This document shows, piece after piece, positions 22,211-34,896 of a stretch of 42,798 nucleotides of DNA (positions within the stretch are counted from its first letter, which is position 1; the number at the start of each line of letters is the position of its first letter). Source of the DNA: Armatimonadota bacterium (GTDB lineage Bacteria; Armatimonadota; Fimbriimonadia; Fimbriimonadales; GBS-DC); the NCBI GenBank assembly GCA_023511915.1, contig JAIMAN010000019.1:1-42798 (forward strand), written 5' to 3'. Under the pieces are notes generated by a model. The model had not been told where the DNA came from, searched no databases, and worked only from the letters and a program-made list of their open reading frames with translations. The position numbers were made by a program, and so were the translations under genes.

Positions 22211-22555
22211 TTAGCCCGGCGGCCAGCCCATTTGCCGCCCGCCCAGCAGGTGGAAGTGCAGGTGGTACACCGACTGCCCCGCCGCGCGGTTCGTGTTCAG
22301 CACCACGCGGTAGCCCTCCGCCTCGATGCCCTCCTGACGGGCAAGCTCGGCGCACACCCACAGCAGATGCCCCATCAGCCCCTCGTGGTCGGTTTGCATC
22401 GCCGCGAGGTTTTCGATGTGCAGGCGCGGGATGACCAAGATATGCGTCGGCGCCTGCGGGTTGATGTCGCGGAACGCCAGCGCGTGTTCGTCTTCGTAGA
22501 CCACCTGCGTCGGGATTTCGCGGCTCACGAACTTGCAGAACAGGCACGCGCTCAT
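22211..22555 (-). CDS. HIT (histidine triad) family protein
   Basis: CLFCKFVSREIPTQVVYEDEHALAFRDINPQAPTHILVIPRLH...QSVYHLHFHLLGGRQM. Confidence 0.95.
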   Translation of the reverse strand: MSACLFCKFVSREIPTQVVYEDEHALAFRDINPQAPTHILVIPRLHIENLAAMQTDHEGLMGHLLWVCAELARQEGIEAEGYRVVLNTNRAAGQSVYHLHFHLLGGRQMGWPPG

Positions 22556-23280
22556 GCCGACCTCCCTGCGGCGTGTTCGCGCCGCCGCTCGCGCAGAATC
22601 TCGCGAATCTTGCGGATAGACTCCTGCGCCATTTGTTGCACCTCGTGGGGCTTCAGTCCCAGTTTTTCCGCCGCCTGCTCCAGCGTGTGCGCCTGCTCGC
22701 CCTGCAGCCCGTACAGCAGGCGCACGACCTCCCGCTCGGCGGGCAGCAGATCGTCCATCACGCGCTCAATCTGTTTGGGGTGCAACGGCTGCGCAAGGTC
22801 ATACACGATTTGCATCAGCACCGTCTTCTCGTCTTTGGCGCGGTGCTGCCACATCTTGAGCGTCTGCTCGATTTGGGCGTGTCCCAGCGTCTCGGCGAAG
22901 TAGCCTTCCGCCCAGAAGTTGCGCTTGCCGATTTCCTGCTCCAAGCGGGGGATGCCCTCGAACAGCCGATGCGCCGTGCTGCGCTTGATATTGCTGATTA
23001 CATCGGCGACGGCATCGGTCGGTTTGATGCCCAGCACCAGATGCACCTGGTTCGGCATCACGCGGTAGGCGATGAGTTCGTACTCGTAGCTTTGGCACAC
23101 TTCGGGGAGCGCATGGGCAAAGAGCGCAGTGACCTCCGCATCAAAAAGGGGTTTCTTCGCGCGGGCGTAGAAGGCGACCAGCACAAACAGGCGGTACGCA
23201 CTGGAGCCTGTCGTGCGCAACTTCTCGAAAGGCGACCGCGCCTTACGCTGCTGCGACCCCTCGGTTGGTTTCTTCGCCAT
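22552..23280 (-). CDS. IS200/Y1 (HUH) transposase-like domain fused to a sigma-70 region 4-like HTH; probably catalytically degenerate
   Basis: N-terminus: YRLFVLVAFYARAKKPLFDAEV...LIAYRVMPNQVHLVLGI...SNIKRSTAHRLFEGIPRLEQEIGKRNFWAEGYFAETLG aligns by eye to IS200 TnpA. C-terminus: LLPAEREVVRLLYGLQGEQAHTLEQAAEKLGLKPHEVQQMAQESIRKIREIL aligns to sigma region 4. Confidence 0.85.
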   Translation of the reverse strand: MAKKPTEGSQQRKARSPFEKLRTTGSSAYRLFVLVAFYARAKKPLFDAEVTALFAHALPEVCQSYEYELIAYRVMPNQVHLVLGIKPTDAVADVISNIKRSTAHRLFEGIPRLEQEIGKRNFWAEGYFAETLGHAQIEQTLKMWQHRAKDEKTVLMQIVYDLAQPLHPKQIERVMDDLLPAEREVVRLLYGLQGEQAHTLEQAAEKLGLKPHEVQQMAQESIRKIREILRERRREHAAGRSA

Positions 23281-23313
23281 GCGTGCCCTCCAGCATCAAG
23301 CGACACCATCGGA

Positions 23314-23329
23314 AGTATACCCCATGTGG
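23314..23329 (-). promoter_or_regulatory. Promoter-associated motif CCACATGGGGTATACT upstream of the Y1-sigma4 fusion gene
   Basis: Contains GGGTATACT (extended -10-like); shared with 26874-26889. Confidence 0.5.
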
Positions 23330-23350: not shown

Positions 23351-25444
23351 TCAGGGCGAATCCGTATACGGGCGCAGCCAATCCGCCAGCGCGGGGAGCG
23401 CGTCGAATATGCGCACGCCTTGAGGCAGGTTGTTCAAGATTTCGCGCCCGTAGGCTTTCGTGCGCGTGCGCGGGTCTAAGATTGCGGCGATCCCCCAGTC
23501 GTCGGCGCGGCGGATGAGCCTGCCGAACCCCTGACGCATCTGCTGCTTGACCATCGGCAGCGTCCACGCGCGGAAGGGGTCTAACGCCTGCGCCTCGAAC
23601 CACGCCTGACGCGCCCGCTGCAGGGGCGTGGTCGGCACTTCGAACGGGATGCGCGTCAGGATCAGGTTCACCAGCGTCTCGCCGGGGGCGTCGAATCCCG
23701 TCCAGAACGAGCGCACCCCGAACAGCACCGAATGCACCTCTTCGCGGAACTGCCGCGCGAGGTCTGCCACCGAGCCGTCGCCCTGCATCAGGATGCGCAC
23801 TCCGTCCAGTTGGATGCGCTCGCGCACGGCGCGCATCTCGGCGACGGAGGCGAACAGCACCAGCGCGCGTCCGTGCGTGAGGCGGATCAGCGCGCCGATT
23901 TCGTCGGCGAGGCGCTGATAGTAGGCGTCTGCGCCAGGCGCGCGGGCATGCGGCGGGGGCGGCGGGATCGCGCCCACGCGCGGCAAGTAGAGCGCGCACT
24001 GGCGACGGTAATCGAACACATAGGGCAGTTGAAGCGTCGCGTGCGCTTCGAACCCCAGTTGCCCCGCGAAAAAGTCGAACCGCCCGTCGATAGTCAGCGT
24101 CGCGCTCATCAGCAGCGCGGGGCGGTCGCTCCACAGGCGCGTGTGCAGCCACTCGCCCAGCGCGAGCGGCTCGTAGCACGCCTTCCAGCGCGGCGCGTCA
24201 GGCTCCACCCAACTTACGCCCTCCGCTGGCTCCGCCAGCCGCCCCAAGTGCTCATACGCCATCACGAACTCGCCGCGGAACTGCAGCAGCAGCTCGCGCA
24301 CGGCGTCGTGCTGCGCGTCGGTGAGTTGCCCCTTGAAGTCCTTCAGCGTCTGGCTCAGTTCCCGATAGAGGTCGCCAATCTCCTTGCGTATCGCCGCTGC
24401 CGTGTGGCTGACCTGTTCGTGCAGGTCGGGTCGGAACGCGCCGTGCAGCGGGCGCATCTGCGCCAGCGTTTCGGGCGCGACGCGCGTAGCGACCCCCTCC
24501 TTCGGTAGGTCGCCGGGGAACGCCATCTGCTCATAGGCGTCGCGCACGCGCCCCGCAAAGCCCGCCACCAACTGCTGCACGGACTGTATCAGCCCCAGTG
24601 GCGGGTTCTCGCCCGTAAGCACGTCGCCAACCTGGTTGCTCAAGTTCACGGCGTGCGCAATCAGCCGTTCGATAAACTTGCTGTCCAGGTCGAACTCCAG
24701 CGCGCTGGCGGCGGCGTCCAGAAAGTCGTGCGCCTCGTCGAGGATCAGGTAGTCGTAGTCGTCCAGCAGCGAGGCTGCGCCGTCGGTCGCTTGGCGCACC
24801 ATCGCGTCTGCCAGCACGAAGGCGTGATTGGTGATAACAATCCCCGCTCGGCGCGCCCGCTCCCGCGCTTGGTAGTAAAAGCAGGTGGGGTAGTAGGGGC
24901 ACAGGCGCGCCCGACACGCGCTCGGCACAGCGATATGCTCCCACAGCCCGCGCATAAACCGCTCGGGCACGCCCCTGCGCCGTAGAAACTCGTGCAGTTC
25001 CGACTCCACGCCCTCCTGCGCGACGCTGACCCACTGCTGGAGGGAATTCGCGAGTTCGGGACGCACGCGCGACGCCTTGTTGCCCCGAATGATGTCGGCG
25101 CAGGCGTAGCGGCTGCGTCCCATCGCCAAGGCGACTTCGGGCGCGGTCGGGAACAGGCTCAGCGCGAGCGGCAGGTCTTTGCGCCAATACTGCTCCGCCA
25201 GCATCGCCGTGTAGGTGCTAATCACGACGCGCTTGCGGTGCTGCAGGCTGTAGGCAATCGCGGGCAGCAGCGCGGCGAGGCTTTTGCCCACCCCCGTCGG
25301 CGCTTCCACCATCGCCGACTGCCCGCGCTCCAGTTGCTCGCACACGAACTGCGCCATCTGGCGTTGCACGGGGCGCGGCTCGAAATCGGGGCGCGACTCC
25401 AGACGCTGGAACGCGGCGTCTACTGCCTCCCACAGGCTGCTCAT
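23351..25444 (-). CDS. ATP-dependent DNA helicase, DinG/XPD-like
   Basis: Walker A VEAPTGVGKSLAALLPAI; DEAH box YLILDEAHDFLDA; Cys-rich insertion ACRARLCPYYPTCFYYQARERARRAGIVITNHAF; GFGRLIRRADDWG. Confidence 0.93.
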   Translation of the reverse strand: MSSLWEAVDAAFQRLESRPDFEPRPVQRQMAQFVCEQLERGQSAMVEAPTGVGKSLAALLPAIAYSLQHRKRVVISTYTAMLAEQYWRKDLPLALSLFPTAPEVALAMGRSRYACADIIRGNKASRVRPELANSLQQWVSVAQEGVESELHEFLRRRGVPERFMRGLWEHIAVPSACRARLCPYYPTCFYYQARERARRAGIVITNHAFVLADAMVRQATDGAASLLDDYDYLILDEAHDFLDAAASALEFDLDSKFIERLIAHAVNLSNQVGDVLTGENPPLGLIQSVQQLVAGFAGRVRDAYEQMAFPGDLPKEGVATRVAPETLAQMRPLHGAFRPDLHEQVSHTAAAIRKEIGDLYRELSQTLKDFKGQLTDAQHDAVRELLLQFRGEFVMAYEHLGRLAEPAEGVSWVEPDAPRWKACYEPLALGEWLHTRLWSDRPALLMSATLTIDGRFDFFAGQLGFEAHATLQLPYVFDYRRQCALYLPRVGAIPPPPPHARAPGADAYYQRLADEIGALIRLTHGRALVLFASVAEMRAVRERIQLDGVRILMQGDGSVADLARQFREEVHSVLFGVRSFWTGFDAPGETLVNLILTRIPFEVPTTPLQRARQAWFEAQALDPFRAWTLPMVKQQMRQGFGRLIRRADDWGIAAILDPRTRTKAYGREILNNLPQGVRIFDALPALADWLRPYTDSP

Positions 25445-34347: not shown

Positions 34348-34896
34348 ATGGATGTGATACAGGTAAGCAGGTGGCATCACGCGCCGAAGCACTACTTTGT
34401 GCCGAACACACTCTACATGGTGACGGCTGCCACCCTTTACAAACAGCGCCTGTTCGACAGCTACGAAAAACTCAAAATTTTGGAGGCAGAGTTGTTCGCC
34501 ACTACGCAAATGTATGGTTGGGAACTGCATGCTTGGGCACTGTTCCCCAATCACTACCATGTCATCCTACGCTCGCCTGAAGACGGCGCTTCTCTGAAAC
34601 GGTTGATACAGCGCCTGCATTCTCGAACCGCTTTTGAAATCAACACACTTGACGATACGCCTACTCGCAGAGTGTGGTACGAATACTGGGATACTTGCCT
34701 AACCTATGAGAGGAGCTACCTTGCGCGGTTGAATTATGTGAACAACAACCCAGTACGACACGGATTGGTTTCTCAAGCAGAAGACTACTCTTTCTGCTCT
34801 GCAGCATGGTTCAAGGCATATGCGCCTGCTGAGCTTCAGCGTAAGCTGGCTTGTATCCCTTATAATCGGGTTAAAGTTCCAGAAGTTAATTTGTGA
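34348..34896 (+). CDS. REP-associated tyrosine transposase (RAYT)
   Basis: HUH motif FPNHYHVIL; WYEYWDTCLTYERSYLARLNYVNNNPVRHGLV, typical RAYT C-terminal catalytic region. Confidence 0.92.
   Translation: MDVIQVSRWHHAPKHYFVPNTLYMVTAATLYKQRLFDSYEKLKILEAELFATTQMYGWELHAWALFPNHYHVILRSPEDGASLKRLIQRLHSRTAFEINTLDDTPTRRVWYEYWDTCLTYERSYLARLNYVNNNPVRHGLVSQAEDYSFCSAAWFKAYAPAELQRKLACIPYNRVKVPEVNL

Follow-up and report, generated by a model that had tools for sequence, protein, structure and literature searches.

A Y1 transposase domain without its catalytic residues, fused to a sigma region 4-like domain and conserved in one family of Fimbriimonadales

What can a protein do that carries the fold of an IS200-type (Y1) transposase and region 4 of a sigma factor on one chain, when neither half appears to have kept the residues for the activity it is known for? 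Such a protein is encoded in the window analyzed here (the whole stretch of 42,798 nucleotides of contig JAIMAN010000019.1 from the Armatimonadota bacterium assembly GCA_023511915.1). The open reading frame lies exactly where a previous sequence-only reading of this DNA had located it, on the minus strand, which that reading had left unstated. Coordinates of the gene, its parts, and its neighbors are collected in Table 1.

Table 1. Features of the fusion gene and its surroundings (positions in the window).
Feature	Position	Strand	Remarks
Y1 (IS200-type)/sigma region 4 fusion gene	22552..23280	(-)	242 aa
Residues 16-27 (SPFEKLRTTGSS) preceding the Y1 fold	23200..23235	(-)	strongly conserved (family alignment), poor predicted order (pLDDT)
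Residues 28-150, Y1/HUH transposase fold whose sequence indicates loss of catalysis	22831..23199	(-)	Pfam, NCBIfam, PDB profile search, Foldseek
Residues 77-80 (NQVH), in place of the DHVH (HUH) motif	23041..23052	(-)	Q78 in 18/18; H80 replaced in 5/18
Residue M143, in place of the catalytic tyrosine	22852..22854	(-)	Tyr in 0/18 members and 15/16 free-standing TnpAs
Residues 168-231, sigma-70 region-4-like domain	22588..22779	(-)	Pfam 18/18; SigA PDB match; 8cwr_B rmsd 2.2, 58 columns
Residues 209-226, equivalent of the recognition helix, without -35-reading arginines	22603..22656	(-)	sigma alignment
-10-like promoter element GGTATACTT of the fusion gene	23313..23321	(-)	general promoter element in the host genome
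HIT-family gene, overlapping the stop codon of the fusion (ATGA)	22211..22555	(-)	overlap kept in 15/17 genomes
DinG/XPD-like helicase, upstream of the fusion	23351..25444	(-)	neighbor within the genus only

Both halves scored above the curated Pfam cut-offs, Y1_Tnp at residues 34-140 (72.4 bits versus a cut-off of 23; E 4.5e-20) and Sigma70_r4 at residues 175-227 (25.9 bits versus 24.1; E 7e-6). Because the latter score barely exceeded its cut-off, the relatives were probed with the same model; like Y1_Tnp, it matched all 18 family members (best match 2e-9). The proposed combination of Y1 and sigma region 4 is thus a true fusion. Matches to BicD, DAXX, and Death were under the Pfam cut-off and were discarded. 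No match to sigma-70 region 2, which recognizes the -10 element and binds the clamp, was obtained within the fusion, where that part is Y1. Searched against the PDB, the family profile retrieved ISDra2-type TnpA chains (2fyx, 2xo6, and 2xm3; 2e-17 to 4e-16) and SigA chains (2e-10). The structure predicted by AlphaFold2 from the family alignment (18 sequences only) had a mean pLDDT of 84.7 and a pTM of 0.73, with a Y1-like order of strands and helices followed by four helices. From this model, Foldseek clearly recovered the Y1 fold (ISDra2 TnpA, 1.5e-8; the RAYT structure 4er8, 1e-4) and, more weakly, that of sigma region 4 (sigma factors at E of about 0.002 to 0.007), including a chimera of sigma region 4 and the beta-flap (8cwr_B; Table 1); this structural check had been suggested by the sequence-only reading. 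A fold search of BFVD with the fusion gave no useful match. The residues directly preceding the Y1 fold (Table 1) are possibly a binding motif.

Full-length orthologs, sharing 37-87% identity, were found in all 18 genomes of the host's family within the Fimbriimonadales, always one per genome and across six genera (from a protein search covering 291 Armatimonadota genomes); one of these genomes is a single contig. In the 273 other Armatimonadota genomes, sequence and profile searches returned no full-length fusion, only single-domain matches; the 18 orthologs scored between 297 and 450 bits in the profile search, and the best remaining match reached at most 61 bits, on the Y1 part only. The fusion was not found in the IMG/VR, plasmid, or phage collections either. 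Scanning the contigs of 85,462 species with short patterns from one protein, which reaches close relatives only and thus does not cover other phyla, yielded six matches, all from Armatimonadota, with Fimbriimonadales as the named relatives. Each half formed one clade, one against free-standing TnpAs and the other against sigma factors (98/95 and 99/99), which makes a single fusion event the simplest history. Median dN/dS within the genus was about 0.09 for the Y1 half and 0.07 for the sigma half (Nei-Gojobori method, own script; exact values are rough, with dS near saturation for many pairs). Purifying selection on the fusion is clear and, together with the single-clade halves, argues that the protein is neither an artifact nor decaying. 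The suspected stable retention was thereby borne out by a single copy in every family genome, and the comparison of homologs that had been called for found both the fusion and the catalytic loss conserved in 18 of 18, with the same junction in 18 genomes ruling out a chimeric assembly. Signs of mobility, such as several copies or variable sites, were absent: there is one copy per genome, and the HIT neighbor was kept in 15 of 17.

As the sequence-only reading had noted, the fusion's stop codon (TGA) and the start codon (ATG) of the HIT-family gene overlap in a 4-nt ATGA. In 15 of the 17 genomes that could be judged, the two genes overlap by 4 or 8 nt, which substantiates their coupling; this arrangement is missing from two distant genera, and the eighteenth genome has the gene cut off by a contig end. 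Across 15 genomes, distances between fusion proteins correlate with those between HIT proteins (r 0.88, Mantel p 1e-4). There is no wider conserved operon: outside the genus, the HIT gene is the sole neighbor retained, and the helicase is a neighbor only within it. Upstream of the fusion, no conserved hairpin was seen by eye (160 nt, alignment of 13 genus members). The GTATAC preceding the gene was considered as its own operator and rejected: the genome contains 49 copies of GGGTATACTT versus one of the reversed control, and it is found upstream of ordinary genes (one with an RpoB-looking product, for example), so that it is a general -10 element. It often lies within 15-50 nt of a start codon (e.g., 23313-23321 (-)), with no evident -35 motif in 30 examples. 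Canonical TTGACA promoters also exist in this genome (60 versus 15).

Whether the Y1 half could still act as a transposase was assessed by comparing the catalytic positions of the 18 family members with those of 16 free-standing TnpAs. The first histidine of the HUH motif, present in 16/16 TnpAs, is glutamine (Q78) in every family member, so that the observation of QVH instead of HVH was correct; the invariance of this exchange dates its fixation to before the diversification of the family. The second histidine (16/16 TnpAs) is kept in 13 of 18. Profile alignment to 2xm3 put the catalytic tyrosine at M143, as had been judged by eye; that tyrosine (15/16 TnpAs) is lost throughout, as is the metal-ligand glutamine four residues further on (16/16 TnpAs), with Q147 exchanged for arginine or glycine in 18/18. 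Lacking the nucleophilic tyrosine, a complete HUH motif, and the metal-ligand glutamine, the Y1 half should not cut or rejoin single-stranded DNA, in agreement with the suggested domesticated transposase devoid of catalysis. Five other positions conserved in TnpA (K99, W123, G126, Y127, and P87) are kept in all 18. A histidine in beta1 (position 34), invariant in TnpA, has been lost from the family, and hairpin binding by the Y1 half is therefore not assured.

For the sigma half, 17 complete family members were aligned with 14 sigma factors and with E. coli sigma70 and sigma32 (from NC_000913), gap-free versus sigma70 across the core. Of the sigma70 residues that we take to be DNA-face positions of region 4, R554 is replaced by alanine in 13/17 and never basic, R562 is leucine in 17/17, R586 is glutamate or aspartate in 17/17, and K593 is glutamate, aspartate, or alanine in 17/17. 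The residues that read the bases of the -35 element are R584, E585, and R588 (PMC2613000); R584 is proline in 14/17, R588 is mostly glutamine or histidine (arginine in two members, another residue in 15), and the equivalent of E585 is still acidic in 14/17. The net charge of the recognition helix falls from about +5 to about 0 in the family. The fusion thus has the fold of sigma-70 region 4 (Pfam in 18/18, PDB profile, and Foldseek) but not its -35 contact residues, and the notion of sequence-specific binding to -35-like DNA does not hold, five of six basic DNA-face positions being nonbasic in all or nearly all 17 members. In two sigma-70 factors of the genome itself (L002, G000:C40:13618-13866; L003, G000:C66:66555-66740), the recognition helix does carry its basic residues.

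The flap-facing positions of the domain fared differently. In sigma32, the residues reported to touch the tip helix of the beta-flap of RNA polymerase are A221, L225, W244, L245, L278, and E283 (PMC10216364), which correspond to H167, I171, Y190, L192, I225, and R230 of the fusion. L192 is kept in 17/17, I171 and I225 are hydrophobic in 17/17, and position 190 is tyrosine or histidine; hence, four of the six positions are hydrophobic or aromatic/His in the family. The equivalent of A221 (position 167) is not kept, and that of E283 is arginine in the family, as in most sigma70-type sigmas. As core and interface overlap at some of these positions, their retention may reflect folding only. With the DNA face stripped and the flap face mostly kept, the domain would be DNA-blind and maybe still able to dock on RNA polymerase. 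Of the earlier suggestion that the protein contacts either RNA polymerase or -35-like DNA, only the former part thus survives, as a prediction from the retained positions.

These data are consistent with the following history. A single capture event in the ancestral lineage of the Fimbriimonadales family would have brought in the Y1 domain of an IS200/IS605-type TnpA, which became linked to a copy of region 4 from a sigma factor, the source likely being a sigma-70 factor of the L002/L003 type. Both halves would then have lost their textbook activities, that is, cutting of single-stranded DNA by Y1 and reading and gripping of the -35 element by region 4, while the latter kept most of the hydrophobic side that sigmas press onto the tip helix of the beta-flap. 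The gp33 protein of phage T4 binds this flap tip and has been termed a sigma region 4 mimic; the pore through which RNA exits lies beneath the overhanging flap (PMC2988020, PMC7892883). Similarly, the C-terminal domain of the fusion may dock on the beta-flap as a DNA-blind mimic and keep the inactive Y1 domain next to emerging RNA at the exit channel or to upstream DNA, where it could bind a hairpin or single strand and thereby modulate transcription. Relatives of Y1 do bind DNA hairpins, as solved complexes among the Foldseek matches illustrate. We give about even credence to the picture drawn by analogy to gp33, in which a Y1 domain, domesticated and devoid of catalysis, is carried by a DNA-blind sigma region 4 mimic that would dock on RNA polymerase; hairpin binding is held with lower confidence than this overall picture. 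The more specific version, a lineage-specific factor associated with core RNA polymerase, in which a Y1 pseudo-enzyme capable of binding hairpins would be anchored by the DNA-blind domain at the beta-flap and the RNA exit channel, is put forward only tentatively.

Retained core and lost DNA face would fit equally well if the sigma half were a decoy, binding not the flap but a partner of sigma, such as an anti-sigma factor or an activator that grips region 4. Regulators do often target this region, e.g., WhiB and AsiA (PMC10245118, PMC6755090). However, no candidate partner was found. The family has also lost its counterparts of K593 and R596, residues used by some activators, and we regard the decoy as unlikely. 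It is also rather improbable that the protein is a conventional DNA-binding regulator, with Y1 as a dimerization scaffold and the helix-turn-helix of region 4 reading a new sequence other than -35. The retained helix-turn-helix fold, the purifying selection, the glutamine equivalent to Q589 (Q216, kept in 15/17), and the helix-turn-helix domains appended to other Y1 proteins (PMC6006769) speak for it, but a recognition helix with a net charge of about 0, the acidic residues in place of R586 and K593 (E/D and E/D/A, 17/17), and the missing arginines at R554 and R562 are difficult to reconcile with DNA reading.

A role against transposition, in which the dead Y1 domain would occupy the end hairpins of IS200/IS605 elements or poison TnpA dimers and region 4 would only stabilize or localize the protein, appears improbable to a still greater degree. 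Full-length TnpA of the active type is rare in the family (one clear case, in genome G174), and several genomes of the sister family carry many Y1 matches, which speaks for such a factor; yet, an identity to TnpA of about 25% makes mixed dimers unlikely, no element co-occurs, and the low IS load can be explained otherwise. The idea that the gene is a transposase fossil in decay or was created by misassembly, to which the loss of catalytic residues might lend itself, can practically be dismissed: it is refuted by retention in 18/18 genomes of six genera at 37-87% identity, a dN/dS of about 0.09, and a junction shared by 18 genomes.

TnpA of IS200/IS605 subclass 1.1 (ISDra2, IS608; NF033573) has the Y1 fold and family-level sequence in common with the fusion, and ISDra2 TnpA provides the closest solved structures. 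The fusion even surpasses the cut-off of the NCBI equivalog model for IS200 transposases (NF033573; 75.5 versus 55 bits), so automated annotation would name it as such. Unlike these transposases, it lacks a complete HUH motif, the tyrosine, and the glutamine, is joined to sigma region 4, occurs in single copy, and is vertically inherited. Domesticated transposases of the TnpA-REP (RAYT) type are, like the fusion, low-copy chromosomal Y1 proteins that do not behave as insertion sequences, but they keep the HUH and Y---NP motifs, both absent here, and against the RAYT model NF047646, the fusion scored only 41.6 bits (cut-off 80). TnpAY1 proteins of subclass 2.1 also combine Y1 with a C-terminal helix-turn-helix (DnaA_C, HTH_23, or HTH_28; PMC6006769); however, their class 2 core has the HuH and Y motifs, and their helix-turn-helix is not sigma region 4, whereas the C-terminal match of the fusion was Sigma70_r4 in 18/18 and none of those three. 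TldR proteins, nuclease-dead TnpB repressors (PMC13418256), are likewise IS200/IS605-type proteins whose catalysis has been lost and whose domestication went toward gene regulation, but they derive from TnpB, are RNA-guided, and have no sigma domain. With T4 gp33 (PMC2988020, PMC7892883), the fusion would share a working principle, in which a sigma region 4-like body sits on the beta-flap and brings along a second binding function. The sequence of gp33 does not discernibly resemble sigma, whereas the domain of the fusion is a true homolog of region 4 and its cargo is Y1.

RAYTs, Y1 proteins with other helix-turn-helix domains (PMC6006769), TldR (PMC13418256), and sigma region 4 mimics (gp33) are thus already known; a catalytically dead Y1 domain joined to sigma region 4 was not found reported in the open-access literature. 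The main Y1 superfamily survey retained only proteins that have HuH and Y motifs (PMC6006769), and this filter, together with the naming as IS200, may have hidden such domesticated pseudo-enzymes. If the more specific version holds, the fusion would be a structure-sensing regulator of elongation, termination, or competition with sigma region 4 that has no known counterpart. A transposase HUH domain would then have been captured for transcription rather than for DNA cutting, and Y1 plus a sigma fragment that does not read DNA would be a new build of RNA polymerase accessory factor.

Further Y1 proteins were encountered. In genome G163, a PF01797 match lies about 16 kb from the fusion. Genome G005 encodes a 320-aa protein (L027:1327-2289 (+)) with two tandem Y1 domains, the first apparently without the HUH motif. 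A second Y1 protein is also encoded in the window itself (34348-34896 (+), 182 aa); with HYH, a Y---NP-type motif, and 100.7 bits against NF047646 (cut-off 80), it is a typical RAYT.
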